Shown: positions 41,209 through 63,744 of the stretch, piece after piece
Position numbering within the stretch: the first letter of the stretch is position 1
Layout: each line of letters opens with the position of its first letter
DNA from: Streptomyces sp. CG1
GTDB lineage: Bacteria; Actinomycetota; Actinomycetes; Streptomycetales; Streptomycetaceae
Direction of reading: 5' to 3'
Length of the DNA: 64,000 nt
Assembly (NCBI RefSeq): GCF_041080625.1
Contig: NZ_CP163518.1
Span: forward strand, 3,658,001-3,722,000
Position numbers and translations under genes: made by a program
The notes under the pieces: model-generated
Databases searched by the model: none
Told to the model about the DNA's origin: nothing
What the model saw: only the letters and a program-made list of their open reading frames with translations

Positions 41209-41347
41209 ACCCACTCCACCTCGGAATCGAAGTGCGGGGAACGCCCAGGGCCCGGCAGCGGCGTCCGAAAGGACGCTCGCGGCACCAGCGGACGAGAACT
41301 CGAAGCAGCGACCGCCGCCAACGCAGCAGCCACCTCCTCCTCGCTCC
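41209..41347 (-). repeat. Split piece of the island repeat (3' part of small gene copy)
   Basis: Matches the 3' two-thirds of the small gene next to the radical SAM gene: on the minus strand it encodes EEEVAAALAAVAASSSRPLV and ends RTPLPGPGRSPHFDSEVEWV before its stop. Homology stops abruptly at about 41347 within CACCTCCTCCTCGCTC. The missing 5' part is found at 42672, with about 28 bases present in both pieces. Confidence 0.75.
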
Positions 41348-41446
41348 CCTCCCCGCACATGGAGAAATACGCTTGCAGGGAGCGCAAATGCGAGGTGACC
41401 GCTTCATACAGGGCGCGCGCCTGGACATGCGGCCTGTCGTTCGCAG

Positions 41447-42043
41447 TCAGGAGTCGCCCGTCGCGTAGCCCGCGTCCGTCACGCGGCGGGCCGACGCCTC
41501 CGCCCGATCGGCTCGGGCCAGCAGGCGGGCTCGACTGCGGGGCCACCACATCAGGTCGGCCAGGAGGAGCACAACCACCAGCCACGAGGCGATGGTCTCG
41601 CCCGTGGAGCCCATCACGGTGTCGTACACGGCGAGAGCGACCGCGAGCGCGGTGACAAGCAGGACAACCCAGCGGCGCAGCCGGTCTTCCTCGGCAGTCC
41701 GGCGCAGTGCGGCGGCGTACTCGACGACCGAAGGAGCCAGCCGAGGATCGTCGATGGCCTCGCCTCGCCGGGTGGCACGTACCACGGCCGCGCGGTCGGC
41801 GCGGTTCATGTCCTTGGCCGCAGGCCAGATCCTGCCCATCCGGCGCGCCACTCGGGTCCCGTAGAACGGGCTCAGCACCACGAAGACCACCATGGCGCCC
41901 GCCCATGAGTTCGACTCGACGAGAACGAAAGCCCCGAAGAAGACGCCTGCGGCGAGGCCGGCGCCCACGGCTCGGCCAACCGACCCACGCTGCCACATCC
42001 AGCCCGGAACGAGAATCACCCGTTCACGTTGGCCATCACCCAT
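41447..42043 (-). CDS. Hypothetical membrane protein, 198 aa
   Basis: Two N-terminal hydrophobic helices (VGRAVGAGLAAGVFFGAFVL, AGAMVVFVVLSPFYG), a charged middle, then two further helices (WVVLLVTALAVALAVYDTVM, SWLVVVLLLADLMWW) and an Arg-rich tail. Similar proteins of unknown role are frequent in streptomycetes. It starts at MGDGQRERV; no strong ribosome binding site is seen. It lies in the 1.3-kb segment that splits one copy of the island repeat. Confidence 0.65.
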   Translation of the reverse strand: MGDGQRERVILVPGWMWQRGSVGRAVGAGLAAGVFFGAFVLVESNSWAGAMVVFVVLSPFYGTRVARRMGRIWPAAKDMNRADRAAVVRATRRGEAIDDPRLAPSVVEYAAALRRTAEEDRLRRWVVLLVTALAVALAVYDTVMGSTGETIASWLVVVLLLADLMWWPRSRARLLARADRAEASARRVTDAGYATGDS

Positions 42044-42340
42044 CAAGGACGCAACCACCGCACCGGCACGCCGACCCCAGCACACGCACACGGCGCACCA
42101 GATGACTGCGGCCCTGGATCGCTACGGCCGCACGCGGCACCTACTCCGACGAGAACGGGGCGATCCGGTGGTGTCCGGCTCTGGTTGATGTCAGGCGTGG
42201 ATGTCAGGCATGGATGTCAGCCGGTCTCTCGATGCCTGTGGTCGCTCGTATTGCTCGTTCGGGTGCGTATCTCGTGCAGGTTCCGCCCCAGATGCCAAGG
42301 CTTGACTTCGCGATGTGTCTCCTCGTGAAGGTGGAAGAAC

Positions 42341-42637
42341 ATGCCGACGTACGTCGCCTTGCTGAGCTGGACCGAACAAGGGGTCCGAAACTACAAAGAC
42401 ACCACGAAGCGCGCCGAGACCTTCAGCTCAGCGGTACAGAAGCTCGGGGCGAAGCTCCTGACTATCTACTGGACCGTCGGTCCGTATGACCTCGTAGCCG
42501 TCGTCGAGGCGCCCGACGACGAAACCGCCTCAGCAGCACTCCTGCAACTCGGCGGAGTGGGCAACGTCCGTTCCACGACGCTTCGGGCGTTCGGCCGAGA
42601 GGAGATGGAGCGCATCATCGCCAAGGCTGCTGGCTGA
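42341..42637 (+). CDS. GYD domain protein
   Basis: 98 residues of the GYD family (dimeric alpha/beta barrel fold): MPTYVALLSWTEQGVRNYKD and the name motif in TIYWTVGPYDLVAVVEAPD. Function of the family is not established. GTGAAGGTGGAAGAAC precedes the ATG. It shares the 1.3-kb insert with the 198-residue membrane protein. Confidence 0.85.
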   Translation: MPTYVALLSWTEQGVRNYKDTTKRAETFSSAVQKLGAKLLTIYWTVGPYDLVAVVEAPDDETASAALLQLGGVGNVRSTTLRAFGREEMERIIAKAAG

Positions 42638-42671
42638 CGACCATCACACAGCCAGCGATGGCGTCCGGCAC

Positions 42672-42856
42672 GACGGCCAACGCAGCGGTCACCTCGTCCT
42701 CGCTCACCCCGGCCAAAGCCTCAACCACCCGATCGAGTGCCTCACTCACCTCAGTGCGCGTGACCACTCGAAGCAGGCGTCGGACCAGCGTTCTTGACCG
42801 TCAGAGGCAGCAACTTCTTGCCGGTCGGGCCGATCTGGATCTGGGTGTCCATCTGG
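42672..42856 (-). repeat. Island repeat copy A (radical SAM 3' end plus start of small gene)
   Basis: On the minus strand it encodes QMDTQIQIGPTGKKLLPLTV and ends in GPTPASSGHAH, the last 34 residues of the radical SAM protein, then the first 25 or so codons of the small gene (start GTG, VTRTEVSEALDRV). Compared with the in-place copy the protein differs by a single residue. Homology to copy B runs to TCCATCTGGGG. Probably the oldest displaced gene end. Confidence 0.85.
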
Positions 42857-43025
42857 GGGCAGCGAGCCATTCACAACGACACGGACCACAGACGGCATCA
42901 CCGCGAGGTGCTACCCATACAACCGAAGCCACGTACGCCAGGCCCATGTCGGCACATCGCGCAGGGATTGTGATCGGGGTCGCCTGCTTGCCGTTACATC
43001 ACTAGGCCTCATACATCACTAGGCC

Positions 43026-44156
43026 TCATTGGGCCGGGCCAAGTACTTCGTCGGCGCTTCGGGGCTCTGTGCGCGGTTGCCGGTTGAGTTTGTGGCGTGC
43101 GATGGAGGACCGCCGGTAGACCTCCTTGCGGGCCCGCATGATGTTGCCCAGGGGTGCGTGCTCGGCGGTGACCCGCCAGGGCGTGAAGGACAGTGCGTCC
43201 ATCTTCTCCAGGTTTTCCGGGCCGGAGATGTCCTGCTGCGGCAGCCGCAGCTTCGCCACGGTGACGGCCGGCGAGAGCTGCTCGGGCCACTCCACGGTCG
43301 TGTCTTCCACCGGCATGCGCTCCAGGTCGGTGCAGAGCTGGACCTGGATGTCGTAGGCGTAGGGCCGCTCCTGCAGCTCGGCCTCCAGGGCCGGTCGGAA
43401 GACCTCGGCCGCCGAGGTCGGATCGATGTCGCGCCGGACCACCGCGGCGGCGCAGTCCGGGTCGGGGGTGATACGCACCTTGGCGATGTAGTCCCCGTGC
43501 CGGACCGCACCCATCGTCCAGTAGCTCGACAGCAGTACGTTTGCCGGGGGGATCTTTGACAGGCGTAGGAAAGCCAGGAACTCGTCCCACGCCCAGCTGT
43601 CCTGGTCCAGCGTTCCCTTTCCGGTCACGAAGTCGGTGTAGAAACGATGTGCTCCAGGTCGGCCCTGAGAGAAGTAGGCCGGCGCGTTCAGGAACAGTTC
43701 CTGGATGAACAGGTAGTGCTCAACCGTGTTGCAGAAGAAGATCGGTCCATTGATGTTGGCGTAGTCGAAGGTGCCCGTGTCCGGTTCGTCTTCCAGCAGG
43801 GTCGGGCCGGGGATGTCGAACATCTTCAGTGCCAGTCCGGTGGCGGCGCCCAGCCGTGCGTCGGCTCCGGCGTGAGGCGAGCCGTTGGAGAAGCGGATGA
43901 GGGCATCATGGGTTCCCGGAGTCGCGTAGATGCCTTGGGCGTACTCAGGGGGTAGGCCATCCAGGATCTCCACTTCCCCTCGGACGAGCCCGTAGCCCTT
44001 GGCATGGGCGTCACGCAGAGCCCGGCCGGTGCCACCGGCCTCGACGGAGTCGGCGATGTAGCTCTCGGTCTTGTCGATCACCGTCTGCAGGGTGCGCTCG
44101 AAGTGCGGATCGTCGGCTTCAACGTCAGGCGTATAGCGGACGAACTGTGCTGCCAT
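43026..44156 (-). CDS. Catalase-like heme protein
   Basis: 376 residues, shorter than monofunctional catalases (about 480 or more). The N-terminal half keeps the core barrel pattern: AHAKGYGLVRGEVEIL, IYATPGTHDALIRFSNGSPH, GAATGLALKMFDI. The C-terminal half continues with SYWTMGAVRHGDYIAKVRI and a cysteine-containing strand. Such small catalase-core proteins act as peroxidases or lipid-peroxide enzymes rather than true catalases; I cannot identify the proximal Tyr with certainty. ATG follows GAGGAGG. It is the third gene of the ABM-like, DyP, catalase-like operon. Confidence 0.85.
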   Translation of the reverse strand: MAAQFVRYTPDVEADDPHFERTLQTVIDKTESYIADSVEAGGTGRALRDAHAKGYGLVRGEVEILDGLPPEYAQGIYATPGTHDALIRFSNGSPHAGADARLGAATGLALKMFDIPGPTLLEDEPDTGTFDYANINGPIFFCNTVEHYLFIQELFLNAPAYFSQGRPGAHRFYTDFVTGKGTLDQDSWAWDEFLAFLRLSKIPPANVLLSSYWTMGAVRHGDYIAKVRITPDPDCAAAVVRRDIDPTSAAEVFRPALEAELQERPYAYDIQVQLCTDLERMPVEDTTVEWPEQLSPAVTVAKLRLPQQDISGPENLEKMDALSFTPWRVTAEHAPLGNIMRARKEVYRRSSIARHKLNRQPRTEPRSADEVLGPAQ

Positions 44157-44196
44157 GGTGTCGAACCCTCCTCGAAGACCGTGGTGCGAACTGCCC

Positions 44197-45549
44197 TCAG
44201 TCCTCCAACTCCGCGAGCCAGCGCAAGGCGCGCAGCCCAGGGACGAAGCAGTACTCACCGCCCCGGGTGACCACGAAGCTGGGCAGGTTCTGCAGACGAC
44301 GCCGGACCGGCTTCTCCGGGATGGTGACGGTGCCGGTTCCGCCGTGATGCCCGGCTACCGCGTCCTTCTCGCCGGGGTAACCGATGAAGTTGCCGTCGTT
44401 GATCCACTCGGCCTTGATGAACTCGAACTGCCGTTCCAGATGGGCACCGAGGAACACTCCGACCAGACCGCGGTCAGCGCCGTCGTCTTCCAGCACGCCC
44501 TCCGGTAGCGGCGGGCCGTAGGTGGTGCCGCGGCGGATGAGGCGATGCATCCGTGCGTCGCCGATGATGGTGGAATCGCGGGGGTTGGTGCGCCGGATGT
44601 GCGCACCGGCGGGGCACCGGTAGCCACGATCGTCGTTCTCCCGGTACAGGAAGTTGTTGACGCGGTGCGGATCGGCCGCCAGCTCCGGATCGTCGTGCTC
44701 CGGCGCCAGCGTCAGTGGTGCTCCGCTCGGCCAGCGCCCCACCATCTTCGCCGCCAGGAGTGCCTCCTGCTCGGCGCCGGAGCTGTTCGCGCGCAGGTAC
44801 CGGCGCCAGGCCGCCACGTTGGTGTGTACCTTGCGCACGGCCGCGTAGGTGCCGTTGCGGCCCAGCACATCGGGGGTGGGCATGGGCGGCAGGCTGCCGG
44901 TTTCGTCGGGGTAGCCGAGGATGAACTCCCCGGCTTTGATGGGGGTTTCCTGCGGGTTGGAGCCGGGCAGTCCGACGCCTTCGATGTTCGGATGGCTGAT
45001 GCCGTCACGGAAGCCGAAGGTGGTGCGCCCGGTCGGGAGCTGGCGGACCTCCTGCTGCCAGATCACCTGGACACCGGGCGTGTCCTCGAAGGCGACACGG
45101 GCCCGCTCCAGCTCCTTGCCCAGCTGCGCCGCATCGGAGGCGAGGGCACTCAACGCGATATGGACATCGCCCGTTCCGAACGGTGCCTCCCAGCGGTCCG
45201 GGGCGCTCTCGCCCACGTCGCCGATCAGCTCCGCCCGGGCGGCCATGCCCTCACGAAACGCCCGTGGAAAGCTGTCCAGCGACTCCTGAGGCACCCCCAG
45301 GGCCCTCAGCCCCTGGTAGGTGAACGCCACAGCCACCCAGGCATCCTGGCTTCGGTCCGCACTGGGCAGGCCACCCGAGGTCACCGGAAGCAGCCGCCGC
45401 AGCAGGGCGCGCCCGGCATGACGGTCATCGACACGCAGGAAGATGAACTTTCCCTCGTAGGGCACGGGCCGCGGGCGTAGGGCCCCGCTCTGCACGTCGT
45501 CTATCTCGACGCGCACGCCGGCCGCGCTGCGGCTGTCCGCGGTGCTCAT
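44197..45549 (-). CDS. DyP-type peroxidase
   Basis: 450 residues, intact. Distal-site GxxDG motif G179-FRD-G183 (TTFGFRDGISHPN) and proximal heme ligand His317 in CPAGAHIRRTNPRD. DyP enzymes oxidise dyes, phenolics or lignin fragments, or process peroxides with broad specificity. No Tat or encapsulin-targeting tag is clear. It is 40 bases upstream of the catalase-like gene. The second, broken DyP at 35704-37039 is a diverged paralogue, not a recent copy. Confidence 0.93.
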   Translation of the reverse strand: MSTADSRSAAGVRVEIDDVQSGALRPRPVPYEGKFIFLRVDDRHAGRALLRRLLPVTSGGLPSADRSQDAWVAVAFTYQGLRALGVPQESLDSFPRAFREGMAARAELIGDVGESAPDRWEAPFGTGDVHIALSALASDAAQLGKELERARVAFEDTPGVQVIWQQEVRQLPTGRTTFGFRDGISHPNIEGVGLPGSNPQETPIKAGEFILGYPDETGSLPPMPTPDVLGRNGTYAAVRKVHTNVAAWRRYLRANSSGAEQEALLAAKMVGRWPSGAPLTLAPEHDDPELAADPHRVNNFLYRENDDRGYRCPAGAHIRRTNPRDSTIIGDARMHRLIRRGTTYGPPLPEGVLEDDGADRGLVGVFLGAHLERQFEFIKAEWINDGNFIGYPGEKDAVAGHHGGTGTVTIPEKPVRRRLQNLPSFVVTRGGEYCFVPGLRALRWLAELED

Positions 45550-45661
45550 GATCGCTTGTGCCTCCGTATCGGTCTCTGCCTGGGCAGCCTCGCAGCGGCC
45601 GACCCGCCCGCCGGCGCGGCCCGACGTCGGGTCTGTTCCGAGGGTCGGTTGTGTCCGGGTT

Positions 45662-46252
45662 CTAGGCCGAGGCTTCCTCCAGCAGCTTCTGGAAGGAAGG
45701 CGTGGCCACCAACTCCGCATTGGCCGGATTCTCCAGCGCCGCCCGGAACTCGGGAGTGTCCAGCACCTCTTCGAACGCCTCCTCCACGCGATGGTCCTTG
45801 TAGATCTGCTGAACGGTCAGATCCGGATAGGCGCTGACGAAGACCCCCGCGGGCTCCTGGTGGGCGATGAACCAGTCCTTCACCCCCGGGTCCTTGACGC
45901 CGGGGAACCCCTCGCTGTGAGAGAAGACCCTGTCGAAGCGCTCCCCGACCACCGTCTGGGCGAAGTCGTCGATGTAGGCGTCCCAGGAACCGTCGAAGAC
46001 ACTTGCGAACATGAACCGGGTGTCGTTGTCGAAGATCACGTGCCGTGCATCATGCAGGGTGCCGATCTGGCGCACCGCCGCATGCACCCTCTCGTCATCC
46101 GCCGCGTCGGCAAGCGTGGCGAGATCCTCACGCAAAGCATCCGCATGGCCCGGCTTGATCTTGGTGAAGACGGTGAACTCGCTGCAGACTCCATCCGACT
46201 TGCCTGGCCGCTCAGGGTGAGCTGTCTGGGGTGCACCTGTCGTCGCAGTCAT
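45662..46252 (-). CDS. ABM-like alpha/beta barrel protein linked to peroxidases
   Basis: 196 residues with the dimeric-barrel pattern of antibiotic-biosynthesis-monooxygenase-like proteins: EFTVFTKIKPGHADALREDL, then IGTLHDARHVIFDNDTRFMF and a Phe/Val-rich second half ending LEEASA. Genes of this type occur beside DyP and catalase genes in other bacteria, so it may be a partner or itself bind heme; this is inference. First gene of the three-gene operon. Confidence 0.65.
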   Translation of the reverse strand: MTATTGAPQTAHPERPGKSDGVCSEFTVFTKIKPGHADALREDLATLADAADDERVHAAVRQIGTLHDARHVIFDNDTRFMFASVFDGSWDAYIDDFAQTVVGERFDRVFSHSEGFPGVKDPGVKDWFIAHQEPAGVFVSAYPDLTVQQIYKDHRVEEAFEEVLDTPEFRAALENPANAELVATPSFQKLLEEASA

Positions 46253-46547
46253 CGTGAGACTCTCCTAGCACGGATCGGTGCGAGGGCCGCTCAGCACCCG
46301 AAGATGAGGCGCCATCGCCCTCACCTGCCCATCGTCACTGCGGATGCGCTGGCTCGCATCTCGGTCCCTGGGCGTTGTGTTCACCTGGGGAGGAGTTCGA
46401 CCGGAAACTCGACGAGGTCCGCAAGCCTGTCCGGGATCGCCCGCACGGCGAGGGCGATGCGATCATCAAGATCGACAAGAGCGAGGAGACATCCGTAGTG
46501 CGCGGACGCGCAGGCCAAAGGGTACGAACGTCCGCGCTGCCCGGCAT

Positions 46548-47264
46548 TCAGCGCGCACGGTGAAGAACGCCCGGCCAGCGGCGACGGGGCCTCGGTGCCG
46601 ACGCCGCGCGGCCTCTCTCCATCCACATGGGCGGGTACGCCGTTGTCAGCAGGAACGCGTAGGCGAAGATCTGTAGCACCCAGCGATCGAACCGGATGGT
46701 CCAGTCGAACTGCCGCTGCGGGTACCGACCGGTCACCATGAGGACACCGGCGGGACCGGTGAAGATCAGGAGTACGAGGGCGACCTCCGCCAGGAGGGCG
46801 GGGATCCCGCCGAGCCACGAGCAGATCGTGAAGCTGAAGAGGCCGATCGCGATCAGGAGGTATTGCGGGGTCGCGCGCAGCCACCACTGCACCAGCGCCG
46901 GGCCCCGTGGCAGCCGGTGCGGGTAGGGGATGTGCAGCCGCGTCGGGTAACCGGGGGCGTCGCCGAGTGTGAAGGGCGGATAGCGGTCCGTGGCGAGTGC
47001 TCCGTACGAGTAGTAGGCGACTCGCCACGTCCAACGGACCACGCCGGAGGTGAAGGCGAACAACGTGCGCGGATAGCGGCCGGTCAACAGGGTCGCGAAG
47101 AACGCGATCACGCTCGCCACGAGGAAGGCGATCCACAGGTGCACAAGCACGAGATGGTGCGGGAGGAGGATGGCCCACTTCACCAACCACAGCCAGCGGG
47201 AAAGCGGCTCGTCGAGCGTTGCCTCGACACGGATCGGCTGGTCCGGCGCCGTGATCGTTGCCAT
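46548..47264 (-). CDS. DUF4389 membrane protein
   Basis: 238 residues with about five transmembrane helices. Family features visible: RWLWLVKWAILLPHHLVLV, LFAFTSGVVRWTWRVAYYSY, TDRYPPFTLGD and TGRYPQRQFDWTIRFDRWV. The tail after residue 215 is Arg/Pro-rich. The biological role of DUF4389 is unknown. ATG is preceded by GGAGCTGACCGTC. Confidence 0.85.
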   Translation of the reverse strand: MATITAPDQPIRVEATLDEPLSRWLWLVKWAILLPHHLVLVHLWIAFLVASVIAFFATLLTGRYPRTLFAFTSGVVRWTWRVAYYSYGALATDRYPPFTLGDAPGYPTRLHIPYPHRLPRGPALVQWWLRATPQYLLIAIGLFSFTICSWLGGIPALLAEVALVLLIFTGPAGVLMVTGRYPQRQFDWTIRFDRWVLQIFAYAFLLTTAYPPMWMERGRAASAPRPRRRWPGVLHRAR

Positions 47265-47760
47265 GACGGTCAGCTCCTTCCCGGTGGTGACCCGGTCGGA
47301 GATCCGTGGGCATCAGGCTCCCGTGCCTCACAAGCTACGCCCCGATGACGGCGGCGACCTCGCCACGAGGCGTCGTCCAACCGGAGCCACCCCCGCCCCC
47401 AGTCCGCGCATCGGACCCGATCGGAGCCAAGCTGTCGCGGTGACACACGTCAAAGCCCTGCGGGCACTCCAGGCGGCGAATCCCACCAGATGAAGTGCAC
47501 AGTCAGAAGCTCCGGCACCGCATCCAGTCTGATCACTTCGTACCCTCCCCGACAAGGGGCGATTACATTACGTGGCTCTTCTCCAACGGTACCCAGAACG
47601 ATCGGGTGCCAGCTCGCCGTCCGGCCCCGCACGGCGGCAACGCCAGCACCGCAGGCCCATCCCAGAACCCTCGCATCCAGAAAGGCCCCGAGGACAGATC
47701 TGACCAGGCGCAGCACGATGGGACTGGTGGAACATTGTCGAGAACGCCACGGAGGCAACC
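47265..47760. other. Intergenic stretch without a convincing gene
   Basis: About 500 bases between DUF4389 and GAP genes. Several short open frames exist on both strands, but none has the codon-position GC bias, a ribosome binding site and a recognisable product together. It presumably contains the divergent promoters. Confidence 0.5.
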
Positions 47761-48438
47761 ATGGGCAAAGTTCTCGGTGACGTACTGGGTTTCGCCGCAG
47801 CCGTCGCGGTCAGCCCCCTCCCGGTCATCGCGATCATCCTCATCCTCGCCACGCCTCGAGGACGTCTCAATGGAATCCTCTTCACCGCTGGCTGGATCCT
47901 CGGACTCTCGGTACTGGGCGCCTTGATGCTGGCGATCGCCTCCCCGGCGGGTGCCTCCGCGCACAAGCACCCGGCCACCTGGGTCGGGGCTCTCAAGCTC
48001 GCTCTCGGTCTGCTCCTCGTCTTCTTCGGCGCCCGGCAGTGGCGGCGGCGCCCAAAGGATCCTGCGCAGGCAAAGCTGCCGAAGTGGATGGGCGCGATCG
48101 ACCGCCTCACCCCGGTCAAGGTCTTCGGGCTCGGAACGGCGCTGGCCGCGCTCAACGCCAAGAACGCCCCGCTGACCATCGCCGCGGGCGCCGCAATCGG
48201 CTCGGCCGGTCTTCCGGTCGGGCAGCAGATCGCATCACTGGCGATCTTCGTCGTGATCGCCACGCTCGGCCTTCTGGTCCCGCTCGGCGTTTTCCTCCTC
48301 GGAGGAGAACGGGCCAGGACGACGCTCGGGAACTGGAAAGACTGGGCAGCTCAGCACAATGTCGCCGTGATGGCCGTCCTGTTCTTCGTCCTCGGGCTGA
48401 AGCTGCTCGGAGACGGCATCTCCATCCTCGTCTCCTGA
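47761..48438 (+). CDS. GAP family (Sap-like) membrane protein
   Basis: 225 residues with six predicted transmembrane helices, of the LysE-like GAP/Sap group that includes the mycobacterial sulfolipid-addressing protein. Helices include LGFAAAVAVSPLPVIAIILI, WILGLSVLGALMLAIA and VMAVLFFVLGLKLLGDGI, with the mid-loop GTALAALNAKNAPLTIAAGA. Start ATG follows GGAGGCAACC. A strong terminator, part of repeat copy B, follows. Confidence 0.85.
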   Translation: MGKVLGDVLGFAAAVAVSPLPVIAIILILATPRGRLNGILFTAGWILGLSVLGALMLAIASPAGASAHKHPATWVGALKLALGLLLVFFGARQWRRRPKDPAQAKLPKWMGAIDRLTPVKVFGLGTALAALNAKNAPLTIAAGAAIGSAGLPVGQQIASLAIFVVIATLGLLVPLGVFLLGGERARTTLGNWKDWAAQHNVAVMAVLFFVLGLKLLGDGISILVS

Positions 48439-48461
48439 CAGACAGACGTGCAACAGACCAA

Positions 48462-48493
48462 CGAGCCCCCTCCCCATCAGGGAAAGGGGCTCG
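48462..48493 (+). terminator. Terminator hairpin within repeat B
   Basis: CGAGCCCC / GGGGCTCG with partly paired interior; serves the GAP gene in its present place and corresponds to the terminator after the small gene at 61529-61558. Confidence 0.7.
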
Positions 48494-48820
48494 GGGCCAT
48501 GCAGTCGCGCACAGACCTGGAATGGACCTCAGACCCACTCCACCTCGAAGACAATGTGCGGAGTACATCCAGGGCCCGGCAGCGGCGTCCGAGAGAACAC
48601 CGGCGGCGCCGACGAACGAGGGATCGAAGCACCGGCGGCAGCCAACGCCGCAGTCACCTCCTCCTCACTCACCCCCGCCAGCGCCTCAACCACCCGATCG
48701 AGTGCCTCGCCCACCTCAGTGCGCGTGACCGCTCGCAGCCGGCGTCGGACCTGAGTTCTTGACCGTCAGCGGCAGCAACTTCTTGCCGGTCGGGCCGATC
48801 TGGATCTGGGTGTCCATCTG
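48462..48820 (-). repeat. Island repeat copy B (gene end, small gene, terminator)
   Basis: A 350-base homologue of 61529-61887: terminator CGAGCCCC...GGGGCTCG (48462-48493), a copy of the small gene (61 residues from ATG at 48714, ending HIVFEVEWV; the native GTG start is GCG here) and the last 34 codons of the radical SAM gene (KNSGPTPAASGHAH). On the plus strand homology ends at TCCATCTG, followed by element sequence. Confidence 0.85.
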
Positions 48821-48846
48821 GGGCCATATACCAACGGGGCCATATC
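48811..48846. other. Proposed attL junction of the integrative element
   Basis: TGTCCATCTG ends the gene-derived part; GGGGCCATAT occurs twice directly after it (48820-48829 and 48836-48845), 17 bases before the integrase ATG. The left half matches the radical SAM gene end, the right half does not. Confidence 0.6.
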
Positions 48847-48862
48847 CGCTACGGTGCTGGTC

Positions 48863-50540: not shown

Positions 50541-50544
50541 CATG

Positions 50545-55852: not shown

Positions 55853-55915
55853 GTTGCCACTCCCGCCCTTGTAACTGTTCGTCAACTCTCTTGGCACCAG
55901 GGCGAATGCACAGCA

Positions 55916-55952
55916 CAACGACCCCGGTACCATCAGGCACCGGGGATCGTTG
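55916..55952 (-). terminator. Hairpin between ATPase and 98-aa genes
   Basis: CAACGACCCCGGT / ACCGGGGATCGTTG with one mismatch and a short loop, about 200 bases past the ATPase stop on the minus strand. Confidence 0.65.
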
Positions 55953-56154
55953 CGTCCCCTCCCGGACCACCCCGGTTGCTGCCAGGCGCAGGGGTGGTCC
56001 GGTCTCGGTCTTCGGTTGTGAAGCGCAGCCTCCCGGGGCTGAGTGGGGATCCCATCCCCAGGAGGCTGACGCCCCGGCCGGTCAGCAACCGGCCAGCCGG
56101 GCCGCCGCGCACGTGCGCGATGTCGAGAGAACGCGAGCGGCGACCCGGGGTCAG

Positions 56155-56721
56155 TCAGGGCGAAGAGCTGTCCGCCCCTTCGTCGAGGTCGAAGCGGCAC
56201 CACACGGTCTTGCCGCCCTCGTCTTCCGGCGTCCACCAGACCGCCGCCGCCAGCCGCTGAACGATCAGCAACCCTCGGCCACTGTCGGGCAGGATCGCTT
56301 CCGACATCGGCCCCACAAGCCCCGGCGAGAAGGTGTCGCCGAGGGGGAGCAAAGGCGGCGTCGAGTCCTCGTCACCGACACCGATGAACAGCCACCTCGG
56401 CCAGGCCTTGAACGTCACGTCGATGCGACGACTCGCACCCGGCCGGGCCAATCGCCCATCCGGAACCGCGTGGTTCACGACGTTGCCGACCAGCTCCGAC
56501 ACGACCGTCCGGGCATCATCGACGACCGCTTCCGCAGTGCAGTCCCCGAGGAACTGAGCCGTCATGTCCCGGGCGACGCGCGCTGTGTCCTGGAACTCGG
56601 CGAAGAGCGTCAACGCCAGAAAGCGCCCGCCCGTCGACGGATCCGGAGCCGCGAACCAGTGAGCGTACGCATCTAACTCGCTCTTCACCCGTTCATGCCG
56701 CCGCGCCTCTCTCGCGTTCAT
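56155..56721 (-). CDS. ATP-binding regulatory protein (HATPase_c_2 / RsbW-like)
   Basis: 188 residues of the GHKL fold used by anti-sigma factors and their relatives: N-box VVSELVGNVVNHAVPDG, G1 box VGDEDSTPPLLP, and SGRGLLIVQRLAAAVWW as the G2 region. Streptomyces encode many such small ATPases, often beside HTH regulators or DUF397 proteins. It is divergent from the HTH-TPR gene, with 210 bases between them that hold tandem GGGGACCCC sites. A partner-switching role is inferred. Confidence 0.85.
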   Translation of the reverse strand: MNAREARRHERVKSELDAYAHWFAAPDPSTGGRFLALTLFAEFQDTARVARDMTAQFLGDCTAEAVVDDARTVVSELVGNVVNHAVPDGRLARPGASRRIDVTFKAWPRWLFIGVGDEDSTPPLLPLGDTFSPGLVGPMSEAILPDSGRGLLIVQRLAAAVWWTPEDEGGKTVWCRFDLDEGADSSSP

Positions 56722-56815
56722 GACACGAACCACCGTCTCTGGTCACGTCTGCCGAGGCCCTCCCGGCAGGGTGACCCGAGGGTGCACCACGCATCCCTGC
56801 CTGGACTCCCCCCAC

Positions 56816-56852
56816 TTGGGGACCCCCCTCTTGGGGACCCCCTGGGTAGACT
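56816..56852 (+). promoter_or_regulatory. Tandem TTGGGGACCCCC operator and -10-like box
   Basis: TTGGGGACCCCC occurs twice, at 56816-56827 and 56831-56842, each with a GGGGACCCC palindrome, 15 bases apart. TAGACT (56847-56852) follows as a possible -10 box for the HTH-TPR gene. The layout suggests a repressor or autoregulator binding over the promoter. Confidence 0.55.
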
Positions 56853-56933
56853 CGCCGGACAGGCAGGGCACGATGATCGAGAGAGAAGACAAAGCAGGAT
56901 CAGACGTCAGGTCAATCACGATGGGGAAGTGAG

Positions 56934-58286
56934 ATGACCACAGCTGCACCGACACCGGCAGCTCTTCCGCCTCACGTGCTGGAACGCGCGGACGTGCGGT
57001 CGGCAATCGCCAACCACGACTTCGGCGAAGTCTTCAGACTCGCCAAGATCCACGGAAACGTCAGCTACGCCAAGATCGCCGAAGCCGTCGGCTACAAGCG
57101 CGAGCACATCGGCAAGATGGCCCGCCCAGAGACGGACGGCAAGGGCGTCCGCCCACGGATCACCCAGTTCCACAAGATCCTCGAAGTGGTCGACGGCCTA
57201 CGCATCCCCGGCCATCTCGCAGGACTCGCCCCCCGCCCGTGGGAGCTGGACCGACCTGCCAGCAGCACGCAGCCGGAGGACCCGAGCACCCTGATCGCAC
57301 AGGGTGGCGCAGGCATATGGGACGTCGCGGAGATGCTGCGCCGCACGGAGATGTCCAGCATCAACAGTGCCGCCCTGGAGTCGATCGAGAAAGGCATCGA
57401 TCAACTGGCCCGCGCCTACCCGTACGCCGACGCCGACTACCTCCACGAGCGCACCCGCAACGGCCTGCAATACGTCACCGAGCAACTCGAACGCCGCATG
57501 ACCCTGCGCCAGCACCAAGAACTGCTGGTCGACACCGGCTGGCTGTTCCTGCTCAACGCCTGCGTCCAGTACGACCGGGGCCAGCGCGAAGCCGCCAACC
57601 TCAGCAAGGCCGCCGCACTCCGCATCGGCGAGGAGGCCGGACACGGCGAGATCAAGGCATGGGCATGGGAGATCGAGGCATGGTTCGCCCTCACCCAGAG
57701 CCGATGGCAAGACATGCTCAACGCCGTCGAGGCCGGACACACGGCGGACCAGACGCACTCGGTCGGCGTCCAGCTCTACGCACACAAGGCCCGAGCCGCC
57801 GCACGCATGGGTGACGCCCGCCTCGTACGTGACTCCCTGGATGCCGGCCGCGCCAGGCTTGACCGACTCCCCAAGCCCGACCACCCCGAACACCACTTCA
57901 TCATCGACCCCGACAAGTGGGACTTCTACGAGATGGACGCCTACCGTCTCCTCGGAGACGACGAGCGCGCCGCCGCCCACGCCCGCTCAGTGATCCGCAT
58001 CAGCACCGGCCCCGACGGCACAGAGATCTCACCCATGCGCGCCGCAGAAGCCCGCCTCACCCTCGGAGTGGCCGCCGCCCGCATGGGCGAGATCGAAGAG
58101 GCCATCGGCATGGGCACCAGGGCACTGGAAGCCGACCGCAAGTCCCTCCCGTCCCTGCTTTTAGTCGCTGACGAGTTGGACAAGGAACTCAGGTCCCGGT
58201 ACCCACGCGAAGCCGCCAGCCGCGACTTCCACGAGCAGGTCATGACCATCAAACGGGGAGCCGCCAGGCCAGAACTTCCGTTCTGA
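56934..58286 (+). CDS. HTH regulator with TPR-like helical repeats
   Basis: 450 residues. Residues 30-75 resemble a helix-turn-helix (VFRLAKIHGNVSYAKIAEAV, GYKREHIGKMARPE). The remaining 350 residues are alpha-helical repeats of TPR type (ELLVDTGWLFLLNACVQYDR, GEIKAWAWEIEAWFALTQSR, AAEARLTLGVAAARMGEIEE). Such regulators are widespread in Streptomyces and sense unknown ligands or peptides. GGGAAG precedes the ATG. It is divergent from the ATPase gene. Confidence 0.82.
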   Translation: MTTAAPTPAALPPHVLERADVRSAIANHDFGEVFRLAKIHGNVSYAKIAEAVGYKREHIGKMARPETDGKGVRPRITQFHKILEVVDGLRIPGHLAGLAPRPWELDRPASSTQPEDPSTLIAQGGAGIWDVAEMLRRTEMSSINSAALESIEKGIDQLARAYPYADADYLHERTRNGLQYVTEQLERRMTLRQHQELLVDTGWLFLLNACVQYDRGQREAANLSKAAALRIGEEAGHGEIKAWAWEIEAWFALTQSRWQDMLNAVEAGHTADQTHSVGVQLYAHKARAAARMGDARLVRDSLDAGRARLDRLPKPDHPEHHFIIDPDKWDFYEMDAYRLLGDDERAAAHARSVIRISTGPDGTEISPMRAAEARLTLGVAAARMGEIEEAIGMGTRALEADRKSLPSLLLVADELDKELRSRYPREAASRDFHEQVMTIKRGAARPELPF

Positions 58287-58394
58287 TCCAGCCATCGGCC
58301 CCGCCGCAACCAGCGCGGCCCAACGCATGCTCTCTGGGTGCGAAAGCCCGTGGCCCACGCTAGGGTGAATTTGGGATAGATAGCTATAGCACAT

Positions 58395-59423
58395 GTGATG
58401 GCAACGATGACCAGTTCACGATCACAGCGAGAGCCACATAGACGGCGCCGGATGGGCACTCATCAGCCGATGTCAACCCACCAACGGCGTACCCATCGCG
58501 CTGAAGCAACTGATCACACCGCAGCCCCTGAACCGCTCATCTCTAGACTTTGGACGGCACTGCGGAAAAAGCGATTCTACATCCCTGCCGCACTAGCCGC
58601 CATAGCCCTGATAGGGACAGCAATTAGCAACTATCAGACGATCGGCAATTTTATTTCATCGGTCACCCGGCATAAACTAACCGATATTGAGCGCGTCCAA
58701 GCCATCCACCTAAATGAGGGCATTGACGCTTTCGATCGAGAACTTGGCCAACCCGTAACTACGTATGGCGGGAGCGACGCAAGAACGTTCGGTATATACG
58801 TGCCGGACCCGAGTGCCGCATCAATGAGTGTGCGCATATACAGGTTGAAGAGCAACATCTTTGTGCAGGCCGGCTACAACACCTCGGGAAATGTCCAAGA
58901 GATGGTTGTTCAAGATTGCAACCCTCACATCAAGCTCACCTTGAGTCGCGCACAGCCAGACCAACACATAACGCTGAACTCTGACACATTCTCCCAGGTA
59001 TCCCCTCAACGCCCGAGTCGCGCCTTTTACAACATACCGATGACCAACCCGGCAGATTTCCTGGAATTCTCCACACCCATCGGCGTAGACTCGGGAATAG
59101 GGGAAGTTTGGGGAGTTGGCCCCGGATGCGACAGCAAGTGGTCGGGCGGCGGAGTTCAACCCCACCCAGAATGGCTAGGAGGGAACCATACAATATTTAC
59201 GAGTTTTGGAGATTTGGACAAGTTCCGCAACGGTAAAATGGTGAACCTGTACGGCCAGGCCACGCCTGTTTACAATGCATCAGATTTTCCACTTCTACCA
59301 GGGCACGGAACTCCTGTTCAAATAACCAATCGCTACCTAAACCCCAGCTACCCGGATCAGCCGCCGGTGCGATCTCCGTCGCCTCCCTCCGAAACGAGCG
59401 GACACGCTAAGAAACCAGGCTAG
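58395..59423 (+). CDS. Membrane-anchored hypothetical protein of low-GC cargo
   Basis: About 342 residues. A basic cytoplasmic N-terminus (55 residues), a transmembrane helix (FYIPAALAAIALIGTAISNY) and a 250-residue extracellular or cytoplasmic domain: IERVQAIHLNEGIDAFDREL, VRIYRLKSNIFVQAGYNTSG, WGVGPGCDSKWSGGG. Codon use has many A/T third positions, unlike neighbours, so it was acquired recently. A resemblance to ETEC_3214-type domains is possible but unverified. The start is uncertain (ATG ATG at 58395 or inner ATGs). It precedes the DUF262 gene tail to tail. Confidence 0.65.
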   Translation: MMATMTSSRSQREPHRRRRMGTHQPMSTHQRRTHRAEATDHTAAPEPLISRLWTALRKKRFYIPAALAAIALIGTAISNYQTIGNFISSVTRHKLTDIERVQAIHLNEGIDAFDRELGQPVTTYGGSDARTFGIYVPDPSAASMSVRIYRLKSNIFVQAGYNTSGNVQEMVVQDCNPHIKLTLSRAQPDQHITLNSDTFSQVSPQRPSRAFYNIPMTNPADFLEFSTPIGVDSGIGEVWGVGPGCDSKWSGGGVQPHPEWLGGNHTIFTSFGDLDKFRNGKMVNLYGQATPVYNASDFPLLPGHGTPVQITNRYLNPSYPDQPPVRSPSPPSETSGHAKKPG

Positions 59424-59544
59424 TTACCCATGTCAAGGGGCCCTGTCCGCCTCAGGGGAAGCCATCCATCCATTGCGGATCAATTATTACTGAGTGCACT
59501 CGACCTGCTGTCTCACAGAGTCTTTAGAGAATCCGCCATGTGAA

Positions 59545-61347
59545 TCAATTTGGGAATCGGCGCACCAACTCAACCACCGCCATGGGGTCAGCCACTTCAA
59601 CCGTCTTCGGCCCCTGTCGATCGTGAAACTTCCCGTCGAAAGTGACGGGTGAGCGTCCAGACGCCGGCTCCAGCTTCCACAACAGAAAATCTTTATACCG
59701 AAATGGACTGAGCGTAGAAGCCAGTGAATCCGCGAAGCTCCTTTGAAGCTTGGAGTTCTGGATTCGGTCGACTAGCCATCGGAATTGCTCATCCAGCGAT
59801 TTTCCAGCAGCGGTGAGCTCATGCTGCGTGCCAGTAACATGAAACCGGTCAATCCGGTGCGTCTTTATCCCAGAGAATCGCTGAACGGCCTCGGCATCCG
59901 CTTCGTCGTCCGCGACACCAATGAAGATTACGCCTCTTACAGCGGGTCCAATATTCGCCATGGCGCTAGCAGTGCGCAGGATCTTATCGAAGCTCCTATC
60001 ATCAAAAGCGCCCGCACTATCGATTCGACAGAAGCCCTGCTTCAACTCGAAGAGCGCATCCTCCGTGAGTGCCATGCGAAGGGTTGACTCAAACTGAAGC
60101 GCCTGAGCTTTTAGTCGGACCTCATGCTCATCCGTTGTCGGTTCGAAATGTGGACGCAGATGGCCTTTCACTGAATTAATAAGTGCAGACTTTCGCTCAC
60201 TCCCCCAGTTACCACCGCCCGGTACACTAAGATCCTTATCCCAGAACCCCTTAAGTGCGTTAGCGAAGATTTTGATATCTTTCGGGCGCAGGTTCTCCTC
60301 TAGAGTAAGCTGCGCAACAGCAATAAAGAGTGCGTGGAAGTGCCTAGGTACTCCGCGCGGATTCTGCTGCGTCATCGTCCACGTCGCAAACGGCGCTCCA
60401 GCTTTTGAGAAAGTTTCCTCCAGAAGGTCGAGCGTGGTCGCGAAGCGGCGCTCAACTTCCTCTCTGCCGATTGTAAGTAGGCGCGTCCTCACAGTCCGGA
60501 TAGAGGTGGAGGCGCTTCCGCGTTCGTCTCCATACGCAGCGTTCCTGTACTCCGTTCCACTACTTGCCAGGGGGCTCAAGATTAGGTCGAGGAGAAGATC
60601 AAGTACGAGCTCTTCGTCACGGGATTCTCGTACTGCTTCACGCGACAGAATCCCCTGCTTCACCCAGAAGATCCCTGCATCGTGGATTCCATAGCCAAGA
60701 TCACGGTTCGTAATACTGATCTTCGGCATATCTTGGAGCTTGACGTAGTCCGTAAGTGAGGCATCACCCCGGATAGATGCACTAATTCTCCGAACGAGAA
60801 CAGAAATATCCGCAGTAGAGCCGGCTTGCCGGATTTCTTGCGAGCTTAGATGGCGACCCGACGAATTAATTCTACGGAAGACTTCATCAACCGATGATTC
60901 GCTGGCTGACCTATAAGTGGAGACTGGGAGCTGATAGTTGGCAAAGTCTCGACAGGAAGCCCGCTGGAGGACAGGCTCTTTTTGAATAAGAGTGCCACTA
61001 TCTTTAAGATATTTCGTGTCTGCAAGCGTCTCAAGGTCAAAATATTGACCGTCGAGCGCGAATTCATTTTCAATGAACGAGAACAGTGCATTCAGTCGCT
61101 GCAACCCGTCAATTACCTCAAACCGTGGGACATTTTCATAGATGTTTTCGGCAAGTAGGATGAGGGGAATCGGAAGACGCTTCAAGACCGAGTCGATCAA
61201 ACGCTCCTTCTCTTCCACCGCCCAAACGAGCTTGCGCTGGTATCGACGGTTCACGAGAAATCGGTCTTGCACGTACTGACTGTAAAGGCGCTGCAGGCTT
61301 TCACCCTGTACGGAAAGCTCAGTTGTCGTGTCCACGGCTTCAGTCAT
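59545..61347 (-). CDS. DUF262 protein with Schlafen/AlbA_2-like C-terminal domain
   Basis: 600 residues. N-terminal DUF262 (ParB/GmrS-like) region: RRYQRKLVW at 34-42, DGLQRLNAL at 81-88 (family form DGQQR), and FRRINSSGRHLSSQEIRQA at 157-175. After a helical middle, residues 433-490 read FELKQGFCRID, ILRTASAMANIG and GVIFIGVADDEAD, the pattern of AlbA_2/Schlafen-type ATP- or nucleic-acid-binding domains. DUF262 proteins include GmrSD modification-dependent nucleases and other anti-phage factors, so a defence role is a reasonable inference. GC3 is much lower than in the backbone. The gene lies in the cargo position, next to the attachment site. Confidence 0.82.
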   Translation of the reverse strand: MTEAVDTTTELSVQGESLQRLYSQYVQDRFLVNRRYQRKLVWAVEEKERLIDSVLKRLPIPLILLAENIYENVPRFEVIDGLQRLNALFSFIENEFALDGQYFDLETLADTKYLKDSGTLIQKEPVLQRASCRDFANYQLPVSTYRSASESSVDEVFRRINSSGRHLSSQEIRQAGSTADISVLVRRISASIRGDASLTDYVKLQDMPKISITNRDLGYGIHDAGIFWVKQGILSREAVRESRDEELVLDLLLDLILSPLASSGTEYRNAAYGDERGSASTSIRTVRTRLLTIGREEVERRFATTLDLLEETFSKAGAPFATWTMTQQNPRGVPRHFHALFIAVAQLTLEENLRPKDIKIFANALKGFWDKDLSVPGGGNWGSERKSALINSVKGHLRPHFEPTTDEHEVRLKAQALQFESTLRMALTEDALFELKQGFCRIDSAGAFDDRSFDKILRTASAMANIGPAVRGVIFIGVADDEADAEAVQRFSGIKTHRIDRFHVTGTQHELTAAGKSLDEQFRWLVDRIQNSKLQRSFADSLASTLSPFRYKDFLLWKLEPASGRSPVTFDGKFHDRQGPKTVEVADPMAVVELVRRFPN

Positions 61348-61528
61348 GTGCCCCCCTGCCCCCAGATCGTGACGCGGAGCTTAGCGTCTGAAACACACCG
61401 TCGCTAGGGCGTCGCACGAATGAACGACTAGAACTCGCGAGCTAGTTTGGAAGGAGCACCTTTCAAAAGCCTCTACGAGGGGCTCGGCGGCGTCAAAGCT
61501 ACGACAGCGCCCACGGCACGGAGGCCAA

Positions 61529-61558
61529 TGAGCCCCTTCCGGTCAGGGAAGGGGCTCA
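61529..61558 (-). terminator. Terminator after the small gene next to radical SAM
   Basis: TGAGCCCCTTCC / GGAAGGGGCTCA with a six-base loop. A diverged copy of it is in repeat B. Confidence 0.8.
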
Positions 61559-61595
61559 ACACGCCACGCAGCCGCACACAAGCCTGGAACAGACC

Positions 61596-61799
61596 TCAGA
61601 CCCACTCGACCTCGGTGACGATGTGCGGCGCGCTTCCAGGGGCTGGCAGCGGCGTCCGATCGGGCGCCCGCGGCGCCGACGGGCGGGGGCGTGAGGCTCC
61701 AACCACAGCCAATGTCGCGGCTACCTCGTCCTCACGCACCGCCGCCAGCGCCTCAATCACCCGATCGAGTGCCTCGCCCACCTCAGTGCGCGTGACCAC
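61596..61799 (-). CDS. Small conserved protein after the radical SAM gene, 67 aa
   Basis: GTG start within the last 17 bases of the radical SAM gene (overlapping frames), so translation is coupled. VVTRTEVGEALDRVIEALAA is helical; the C-terminus RTPLPAPGSAPHIVTEVEWV is conserved among the copies at 41.2 and 48.5 kb. The fold and role are unknown. The existence of three diverged copies that keep the C-terminal EVEWV argues that the ORF is real. Confidence 0.65.
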   Translation of the reverse strand: MVTRTEVGEALDRVIEALAAVREDEVAATLAVVGASRPRPSAPRAPDRTPLPAPGSAPHIVTEVEWV

Positions 61800-63744
61800 T
61801 CGAAGCCGGCGTCGGACCCGCGTTCTTGACCGTCAGAGGCAGCAACTTCTTGCCGGTCGGGCCGATTTGTATGGTCGTATCCATCTGCGGGCAGACGCCG
61901 CAGTCGAAGCACGGGGTCCAGCGGCAGTCCTCGACCTCGGTCTCGTCGAGGGCGTCCTGCCAGTCCTCCCAGAGCCAGTCCTTGTCCAGGCCGGAGTCGA
62001 GGTGATCCCAGGGCAGGACCTCCTCGTAACCGCGCTCGCGCGTGGTGTACCAGTCGACGTCCACGCCGAAGGGGGCGAGGGCCTTGTCGGCGCAGGCCAT
62101 CCAGCGGTCGTAGGAGAAGTGTTCGCGCCAGCCGTCGAAGCGGCCGCCGTCGTCGTACACCGCGCGGATCACCGCCCCGATACGGCGGTCGCCGCGGGAC
62201 AGGAGGCCTTCAACGATGCCGGGCTTGCCGTCGTGGTAGCGGAAGCCGATCGAGCGGCCGTACTTCTTGTCGCCACGGATCTTGTCCCGCAGCTTGGCCA
62301 GACGCGTGTCCGTCTCCTCCGCCGACAGCTGGGGCGCCCACTGGAACGGGGTGTGGGGCTTCGGGACGAAGCCGCCGATCGAGACCGTGCACCGGATGTC
62401 GTTCGAGCCCGAGACCTCGCGGCCCTTCTGGATGACGTGCATCGCCATGTCGGCGATCTGCAGGACGTCGTCGTCGGTCTCGGTCGGCAGACCGCACATG
62501 AAGTACAGCTTCACCTGGCGCCAGCCGTTGCCGTAGGCCGTCGCGACGGTGCGGATCAGGTCCTCTTCCGAGACCATCTTGTTGATGACCTTGCGGATGC
62601 GCTCGGAGCCGCCCTCCGGGGCGAAGGTGAGACCGGAACGGCGGCCGTTCCTCGTCAGCTCGTTCGCCAGGTCGATGTTGAACGCGTCGACGCGGGTGGA
62701 GGGCAGGGACAGGCCGATCTTGTCGTCGGTGTAGCGGTCCGCCAGGCCCTTGGCGATGTCACCGATCTCCGAGTGGTCCGCCGAGGAGAGGGAGAGCAGG
62801 CCGACCTCCTCGAAGCCCGTCGCCTTGAGGCCCTTGTCGACCATCTCGCCGATGCCCGTGATCGAGCGCTCACGCACCGGGCGCGTGATCATGCCGGCCT
62901 GGCAGAAGCGGCAGCCTCGGGTGCAGCCGCGGAAGATCTCCACCGACATGCGCTCGTGCACCGTCTCGGCCAGGGGGACGAGGGGCTGCTTGGGGTACGG
63001 CCACTCGTCCAGGTCCATGACGGTGTGCTTGCTGACCCGCCACGGGACGCCGCTCTTGTTCGGTACGACGCGGGCGATCCGGCCGTCCTGCAGGTACTCG
63101 ACGTCGTAGAACGCCGGGATGTACACCGCGCCCGTCTTGGCCAGGCGGAACAGGACCTCCTCGCGGCCGCCGGGGCAGCCCTCGGCCTTCCACTCGCGGA
63201 TGATCCGGGTCATGTCGAGCACGGCCTGCTCGCCGTCGCCGATGATCGCCGCGTCGATGAAGTCGGCGATCGGCTCCGGGTTGAACGCCGCGTGGCCGCC
63301 GGCCAGGACGATCGGGTCGTCCAGCCCACGGTCCTTGGACTCCAGGGGGATACCCGCCAGGTCCAGGGCCGTCAGCATGTTCGTGTAGCCCAGCTCCGTG
63401 GAGAAGCTGAGGCCGAACACGTCGAAGGACTTCACCGGGCGGTGGGTGTCGACGGTGAACTGCGGGACGCCGTGCTCACGCATCAGCGCCTCCAGGTCCG
63501 GCCACACGCTGTAGGTGCGCTCGGCGAGGACGCCCTCCTGCTCGTTGAGGACCTCGTAGAGGATCATGACGCCCTGGTTGGGCAGACCCACCTCGTACGC
63601 GTCCGGGTACATGAGCGCCCAGCGGACGTCGCACTCGTCCCAGTCCTTGACGGTGGAGTTGAGCTCTCCGCCCACGTACTGGATCGGCTTCTGCACGTGG
63701 GGGAGCAGAGCTTCGAGCTGCGGAAAAACCGACTCGACAGGCAT
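61783..63744 (-). CDS. B12-binding-type radical SAM protein (TIGR03960)
   Basis: 653 residues. An N-terminal cobalamin-binding-like region (ALMYPDAYEVGLPNQGVMIL, GDGEQAVLDM) precedes the radical SAM core with Cys274, Cys278 and Cys281 (FRGCTRGCRFCQAGMITRPV), LTFAPEGGSERIRKVINKMV and a C-terminal Cys cluster (CFDCGVCPQ) followed by IQIGPTGKKLLPLTVKN. It is normally linked with DUF2344; the reaction is not known. ATG 63744 has GAAGG eight bases upstream. Its last 34 codons are the integration target of the island and appear rebuilt by the element. Confidence 0.92.
   Translation of the reverse strand: MPVESVFPQLEALLPHVQKPIQYVGGELNSTVKDWDECDVRWALMYPDAYEVGLPNQGVMILYEVLNEQEGVLAERTYSVWPDLEALMREHGVPQFTVDTHRPVKSFDVFGLSFSTELGYTNMLTALDLAGIPLESKDRGLDDPIVLAGGHAAFNPEPIADFIDAAIIGDGEQAVLDMTRIIREWKAEGCPGGREEVLFRLAKTGAVYIPAFYDVEYLQDGRIARVVPNKSGVPWRVSKHTVMDLDEWPYPKQPLVPLAETVHERMSVEIFRGCTRGCRFCQAGMITRPVRERSITGIGEMVDKGLKATGFEEVGLLSLSSADHSEIGDIAKGLADRYTDDKIGLSLPSTRVDAFNIDLANELTRNGRRSGLTFAPEGGSERIRKVINKMVSEEDLIRTVATAYGNGWRQVKLYFMCGLPTETDDDVLQIADMAMHVIQKGREVSGSNDIRCTVSIGGFVPKPHTPFQWAPQLSAEETDTRLAKLRDKIRGDKKYGRSIGFRYHDGKPGIVEGLLSRGDRRIGAVIRAVYDDGGRFDGWREHFSYDRWMACADKALAPFGVDVDWYTTRERGYEEVLPWDHLDSGLDKDWLWEDWQDALDETEVEDCRWTPCFDCGVCPQMDTTIQIGPTGKKLLPLTVKNAGPTPASSGHAH

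Follow-up and report, generated by a model that had tools for sequence, protein, structure and literature searches.

A probable accretion array of mobile elements at the end of a B12-binding radical SAM gene in Streptomyces sp. CG1

How can a protein-coding gene collect one mobile element after another at its end and stay unbroken? This question is raised by a 64,000-nucleotide stretch of Streptomyces sp. CG1 (NZ_CP163518.1, positions 3,658,001 to 3,722,000, forward strand), hereafter the window, with coordinates counted from its first letter. In it, the TIGR03960 B12-binding radical SAM gene (61783..63894, minus strand; Pfam, NCBIfam) lies 27.0 kb from its host partner, the DUF2344 gene (TIGR03936; 33903..34760, minus strand; Pfam, NCBIfam). 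An earlier note, made from the letters of the window, had remarked on this distance and on three copies of the radical SAM gene end, and had proposed serial integration at one core. The interval is here read, with a probability of about 0.88, as an accretion array at the attachment site of phage phiJoe and the SCO2603-type elements, in which each arriving element would have rebuilt the gene end.

Gene ends, elements and a shared core

A repeat search of the window returned one 300-nt repeat family in a single orientation (42531-42830, 48496-48795, and 61563-61862), whose members share 62-84% identity over their 300 nt, together with an incomplete relative at 41208-41352. Copies of the final 34 codons of the radical SAM gene are present at 42.75, 48.72, and 61.79 kb, referred to as c42, c48, and c61, all of which finish at TCCATCTG-N-GG. 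On the plus strand of the window, TCCATCTG occurs at three sites (42848, 48813, and 61880), always at the right end of a repeat copy. Compared with the whole 11.1-Mb genome, the radical SAM protein matched its own gene and two other places, both of them ends of the same gene within the interval (81% over residues 656-702, E 3e-17; 85% over residues 664-702, E 4e-15). Since the genome-wide matches are confined to the gene and two local gene ends, the repeats lie far beyond chance. The displaced ends c42 (42751..42858, minus strand; GG at 42857-42858) and c48 (48716..48821, minus strand; also placed by the repeat family) encode 35-residue tails that are 97% and 91% identical to the gene's own tail. 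Each end is accompanied by a small gene, of which c42 retains just the N-terminal part (42669..42749, minus strand; 82% over query residues 1-33). A fourth, partial copy, c41 (41208..41342, minus strand; 64% over residues 23-67), retains the small gene's C-terminal part alone and has no gene end. Thus the same-orientation copies and the shared core described in the earlier note were borne out by the repeat and genome searches.

Three elements are delimited by these ends. Element C (48824..61888; att sites and related DNA elsewhere), of ~13.07 kb from GG to GG, is bounded by an attL crossover GG at 48822..48823 with a host-type arm on its left, and by an attR crossover GG at 61889..61890 with an element-type (P-type) arm on its left and host B' on its right, the latter position being set from the GG of the annotated phiJoe attP (TCCATCTG-N-GG). 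Beside attL stands a large serine integrase of the phiJoe type (48854..50482, plus strand; Pfam), 64% identical to phiJoe Int over 525 residues; 254 phage records match it, and the 30 matches listed do so at 64-66%. Two surveyed genomes, which are designated by G numbers, hold relatives of element C at this core: 87.6% over 6.6 kb in G098 and 83% over 7.8 kb in G275. Element C supplied the final 34 codons of the radical SAM gene (61783-61888): of the 703 residues, the crossover is placed near residue 668, and the domain match stops at residue 667. Pieces 87-91% identical to element B (42859..48821) directly adjoin the radical SAM gene in G380, which holds B without C, the state expected ahead of the arrival of C. 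Element A (35692..41342) has lost its left end, and its start is placed where similarity to G388, G286, and G255 starts; its peroxidase end lies at the core in these three genomes (84-93%), and its reductase-P450 part also occurs in G388 (68%). Element C is nearest the gene and has an open integrase and an open small gene, A has lost its left end and has a broken peroxidase, and the two oldest relics are truncated, so that age rises away from the gene.

Among 101 Streptomyces genomes, the radical SAM gene was present in 101 and DUF2344 in 100. Both genes lay on one contig in 98 stretches (the window's genome, G000, included; G016, G036, and G096 fall outside), which form the locus survey. The gap between the two genes is <250 bp in 11 loci, <=3 kb in 65, and >5 kb in 28, with a median of 1.7 kb, so the earlier statement that DUF2344 normally adjoins the radical SAM gene is roughly right. 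Separately, many Streptomyces have a ~1.3 kb gap with neither integrase nor recombination directionality factor (RDF) gene (e.g., G063, G050, and G054; loci L043, L076, and L079). Eleven of the 98 loci are empty sites, and RDF and integrase are found in none of them. At least two gene ends are present at 15 loci, with three in G000 and G098 and four in G010. The phiJoe-type integrase occurs at 10 loci, in 9 of which a displaced gene end lies beside it. A further set of 25 named loci (L numbers) was taken from a genome collection; here the displaced end lies within ~150 bp of the integrase in 22, at 0.8-1.0 kb in two (L141 and L142), and is lacking in L162. G002 and L139 are probably one genome, as are G275 and L149, and RDF matches with E >1e-5 (several loci) were not scored as RDF loci. 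The earlier note had let its proposal depend on empty sites free of the repeats, on breakpoints at the core, and on different cargo elsewhere; the empty sites carry neither RDF nor integrase, the homology breakpoints do coincide at TCCATCTG-N-GG, and other cargo stands at the same core in other species, which supports serial integration with a rebuilt gene end.

The small gene and the coding arm of attP

The small gene that overlaps the gene end was considered as a member of the host gene pair. This assignment was rejected, as the gene is missing from the 11 empty sites; it belongs instead to the elements as their own RDF. A profile of 12 element copies matches proteins of phages Joe, Endor2, Lannister, and SarahRose (E 3e-7 to 2e-10), the next-best match being 0.035 (among 772 real and shuffled frames), and phrog_11213 is matched by both phiJoe gp52 (3e-29) and the small protein of the window (4e-4). 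For phiJoe, gp52 has been demonstrated to act as the RDF (Fogg et al., 2017; PMC5311408). By these profile matches, the small gene is a homologue of gp52 and a predicted RDF. The copy of element C (61596..61781, minus strand; profile, PHROG) encodes 61 aa and has a GTG start one base past the radical SAM stop TGA, and the displaced copy linked to c48 (48529..48714, minus strand; 73% over query residues 2-67) is also open and encodes 61 aa, the codons having been checked in both. A hairpin lies behind each of them, at 61529..61558 for element C (minus strand; -28.4 kcal/mol, z -3.7) and at 48462..48493 for c48 (minus strand; -35.0 kcal/mol, z -4.6). Of the terminator that the earlier note placed in two copies, the strong hairpins stand; neither has a U-run, that of element C being terminator-like, and consensus terminator scans found none.

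The phage attP shows how the gene end is supplied. In phiJoe, attP is annotated at 36556-36605 with its GG at 36580-36581; in frame, it reads as a radical SAM tail (PQMDTWPQ...), the stop of which overlaps the start of gp52 as GTGA. Such an overlap of stop and RDF start is present in 4/4 phages read, as GTGA in phiJoe and Endor2 and as ATGA in Lannister and SarahRose, and the tail peptide is matched by 29 phage records, weakly (E 0.03-1) and at one place per record. Among 48 RDF-linked tails with a readable RDF frame, the RDF start, counted from base one of the radical SAM stop, is four bases further on in 33 (TGA-N-GTG/ATG), with a spacing of five in 4, minus one in 2, and other values in 9; the start closest to the stop was used for this count, which biases it toward short distances, and G002 and L139, probably the same genome, both enter it. 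In tail codons 14-22 of 24 P-type ends, pairwise differences comprise 574 synonymous and 46 nonsynonymous changes, and both variant residues fit a single displaced copy, G039x. In the same genome, a second RDF and gene end, followed by a decayed radical SAM stretch, stand 3.4 Mb from the locus (L127; G039:C1:334000-338000). The synonymous excess and the stop/start spacing together suggest that the gene end brought in by the element is under constraint, with the RDF sited for co-transcription with the host gene. Read in frame, the attP arm encodes a replacement radical SAM C-terminus. Given an RDF start that adjoins or overlaps this stop, the RDF would probably be transcribed along with the host gene, from the host promoter.

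The following course of events is proposed. A serine integrase would join the attP of a circular element to attB, the GG of which lies ~35 codons ahead of the radical SAM end. The P arm of the element would be coding, carrying a replacement C-terminus, an RDF gene that abuts or overlaps the new stop, and then a hairpin; through this arm, integration would re-end the host gene, set the RDF as its last cistron, and push the old gene end to the far side. There the old end, together with the RDF of an earlier element if one was present, would land beside the new integrase. At least three such integrations would have taken place here, with A the oldest, followed by B, and C the youngest. Once an element has settled, the gene junction would regain a host-type arm, through conversion from the displaced copy or through synonymous drift, which would strand the settled element and offer a usable attB to the next one.

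Arm types and rival explanations

The last step is suggested by the arm to the left of the GG. Where an RDF is adjacent, the gene-junction arm is P-type (TTGTAT, TTGTGG) in 8/8 integrase-bearing loci of the survey and host-type (TGGAT) in 9/9 loci with no integrase (Fisher p 4e-5), the nine including G065, whose RDF match is weak (3e-3). Among the named loci, integrase-bearing junctions are likewise P-type in 8/8 stretches that extend into the gene and have an RDF. In a wider set, assembled by hand from the 98 loci, the two-copy stretches, and the named loci, with some genomes possibly counted double, integrase-bearing RDF-linked junctions are P-type in 17/17, and those with no integrase comprise 5 P-type and 14 host-type junctions (p 3e-6). 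This set initially held 15 host-type loci with no integrase, one of which, G201, is not joined to host B' (p 3.1e-6 with and 3.2e-6 without it). The arm-type tests were designed only once the arms had been inspected. On the other side of the element, the displaced arm beside the integrase is host-type in 9/9 of the 98 loci, in G266 and G275, and in 24/24 named loci with a displaced end, one of which (L158, CTGTAT) is intermediate, though host-type by the rule used. In G000 (c48), G266, and G275, the displaced end beside the integrase already bears an RDF, which implies that the junction of an older element had served as attB.

Both states are also seen among relatives of a single element. For element A, G286 has a P-type junction arm, and G388 and G255 have a host-type one; for element B, the arm is P-type in G380 and host-type in the window (c48). 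Moreover, same-genome host-type arm pairs are identical over 32 bp in 6/17 cases (G000, G255, G388, G032, G075, and G097; the 17 include G081, G061, and G201 despite indels or N at the arm), compared with 1.8% of 7858 between-genome pairs, and among related genomes with a slightly shifted window the figures are 5/14 within and 16/932 between (binomial p 3e-6). This suggests that attB may arise anew at the junction itself, so that the resident is locked in and the site is open again, and either conversion or drift would restore it. A fuller version of this idea, which we put forward as possible and no more than tentatively, is a self-resetting trap, in which elements would re-end the host gene with codons that double as an attP half-site and make their excision factor the last translated cistron of that gene. 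The half-site would later be overwritten, either by conversion with the displaced native end as donor or by selection that disfavours foreign codons; attR would be destroyed, the element stranded, and attB re-created for the next arrival. In mending the end of its own protein, the host would then drive a ratchet, with islands stacking up in one direction.

Alternatively, the host-type arms beside an RDF may belong to other elements whose attP arm always resembled the host arm, with no resetting at all. Several P arm types (TTGTAT, TTGTGG, and TTGTACCC) and more than one sequence family on the integrase side exist, which indicates that specificities differ between elements. However, the integrase-bearing RDF-linked junctions are uniformly P-type in the survey and in the named loci, and the four phage attP stretches read are all tail-coding with a TGGCC P-type arm, the tail being matched in the 29 phage records mentioned above. 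Such elements would also leave the two arm states among relatives of A and of B, and the excess of identical arms within genomes, to be explained. This alternative is unlikely, although it is the strongest of those considered.

Several observations weigh against the array or its resetting, and some of them would suit a local duplication, in which unequal crossing-over duplicated the gene end and small gene in place and unrelated DNA was inserted afterwards. In a weakly resolved tree of tail and RDF, which omits the copies of G043 and G091, a sister relationship between c48 and c61 is not rejected (approximately unbiased test, p 0.19); c42 and c48 are 100% identical over the 50 bp adjoining the core and 88% beyond; and the two gene ends of G075 may be a plain duplication because both retain host B' past the core. 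The G032 pair shares some bases past the GG as well, and intermediate arms (G006, G240, G326, G302, and a G098 relic) fit drift or single changes rather than conversion. P-type arms with no integrase occur in G286, G380, G207, G220, and G293, and G040 and L162 combine an integrase with a host-type junction, no RDF having been found in either. The integrase of G029 has no displaced gene end, no RDF was found in G056, and the left edge of element A has no ancestral gene end. Neither A nor B matched an integrase, and their presumed mobility is read from their position and from relatives elsewhere.

A duplication in place nonetheless appears very improbable. Copies of other species are as close to c61 (G002 85%, G326 84%) as c48 is (84%), and c48 groups with the copies of G237 and G302 rather than with c61 (support 89/79). 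For every interval, other genomes hold relatives at this core, the sequence to the right of the core is integrase-side sequence rather than host B', and the 11 empty sites lack the small gene. Assembly can be misled by long direct repeats, but an artefact of sequencing or assembly is scarcely credible, given a genome in two contigs, copies that differ as much as 62-84% identity over 300 nt allows, and similar arrays in other genomes. Serial integration is thus preferred; sequence comparison establishes the shared core, the replaced ends, the identity of the RDF, the separate relatives of A, B, and C at the core, and the arm types.

Cargo and comparison with known systems

Besides its integrase, element C encodes a pSAM2-type RepSA replication initiator (50700..51923, minus strand; PF20199, E 3.6e-139), an FtsK/SpoIIIE-type transfer protein (52546..53847, minus strand; PF01580, E 9e-25), which gave a weak match below the model cut-off to the NCBIfam TraB model, an SCO3933-family regulatory protein (53847..54245, minus strand; NF051478, above cut-off), and a GntR/UTRA regulator (54360..55139, plus strand; Pfam). 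The combination of serine integrase, RepSA, and FtsK-like transfer protein places element C among the actinomycete integrative and conjugative elements (AICEs), which are expected to have a site-specific integrase, a replication initiator (RepSA, RepAM, or Prim-Pol), and an FtsK/SpoIIIE-type TraB; all three are present, here with a serine integrase. A GmrSD-type restriction protein with a Schlafen/AlbA-like part (59545-61347, minus strand) adjoins attR and is possible phage-defence cargo.

Element B encodes a 410-aa protein (43026-44258) for which no family was found in Pfam, a DyP-type peroxidase (44197-45720), and an SfLAP protein (47761-48438), and element A a broken DyP-type peroxidase (35704-37078), an FAD reductase (37561-39165), and a P450 (39205-40413), the families being assigned by family search. 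Neither Rep nor TraB was found in A and B among the subset of reading frames searched against Pfam. A DyP-type peroxidase stands at the core-side end of both of these integrase-less elements, in other species too, which is unusual as cargo common to two different elements. One duplicated element as the source of both peroxidases was rejected: they are 55% identical to each other, and closer relatives occur at this site elsewhere (80-91% for A, 94% for B). The relics at 41.2 and 42.7 kb may represent two events or one split cassette; a GYD-domain gene (42341-42637) within the 1.3 kb that separates c41 and c42 may mark a further, mostly lost element. A tRNA-type hotspot was considered and rejected, as the two tRNA genes of the window sit at 13-15 kb. 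These two tRNA-Ala(GGC) genes (13320-13393 and 14631-14704, minus strand), identical at 74/74 bases with unlike flanks and 1.3 kb apart, are possibly the trace of another integration.

The proposed array would explain how one Streptomyces protein-coding gene collects many islands unbroken, with phages and AICEs each bringing a working replacement end. In a system that already serves for vectors, excision control would be tied to a host gene, and the relic ends would form an ordered record of past integrations. The resetting idea also makes testable how directional serine integrases, which require attB and not attR, could stack elements at one site.

The hotspot itself is not new. The earlier note did not know the site as established; insertion of phiJoe and SCO2603-type elements 74 bp from the end of the same radical SAM gene, along with the hotspot as such, its pairing of int with RDF, and the variety of its cargo, had already been published, and it was suggested that insertion may be tolerated, being close to the gene end (Fogg et al., 2017; PMC5311408). 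In addition, phiOZJ and phiWTR are said to share the phiJoe attB (PMC12924846), and phiJoe-like attP sites have been described in three phiScoe phages (PMC10276819). As far as the text of Fogg et al. describes them, the phiJoe/SCO2603 elements and the present array have in common attB, the crossover GG, the integrase type, a gp52-type RDF, int beside attL, RDF beside attR, and variable cargo; the features expected of this group at the sequence level are present here, namely a related integrase, an attB near the end of an SCO2606-like gene with a central GG, and the same placement of int and RDF. The passages of that text on phiJoe and SCO2603 differ in describing no coding P arm, stop/start junction, stacked elements, or resetting; in its main text, "restor", "stop codon", and "C terminus" are absent and "tandem" appears only in other senses. 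For this site, no paper was found to describe a coding P arm or the stop/start junction, nor a resetting of attB, judged mostly from titles and the starts of abstracts, and within these searches the coding P arm, the stop/start junction, and the pattern of P-type and host-type arms are new.

Element C resembles AICEs of the pSAM2 kind, as far as these are described, in its RepSA, FtsK-like transfer protein, and GntR regulator, and the array resembles AICE accretion at tRNA genes, as described at a tRNA-Arg gene (PMC9513070), in that successive elements and decayed remnants share one site (PMC3218068; PMC9513070). In contrast to the pSAM2 kind, the integrase here is a serine rather than a tyrosine recombinase and the target is a protein gene rather than a tRNA gene (PMC3218068; PMC9513070); serine recombinases were reported in 19/144 AICEs of an earlier survey (PMC3218068). 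Unlike in those elements, as they are described, attB and attP are asymmetric here, so attR would not itself be a new attB.

Staphylococcal cassette chromosome (SCC) elements, including SCCmec and composite SCC islands, use large serine recombinases to insert at the 3' end of rlmH/orfX, and their tandem elements are parted by short att repeats. The array is alike in its large serine recombinase, in targeting a conserved protein gene at its 3' end, and in its tandem elements; it differs in the recombinase family and in that the att repeat is a 35-codon gene end with an RDF. The Ccr models (CcrA, CcrB, and CcrC) gave 16-30 bits against cut-offs of 700-900, and we know of no SCC elements with a gp52-type RDF. 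In the accretion of streptococcal integrative and conjugative elements (ICEs) and cis-mobilizable elements (CIMEs), integrase-less islands bounded by att sites lie beside an integrase-bearing relative, and their att sites stay usable for mobilization in cis. At the radical SAM gene, in contrast, the junction behind the older element appears to have been changed to attB.

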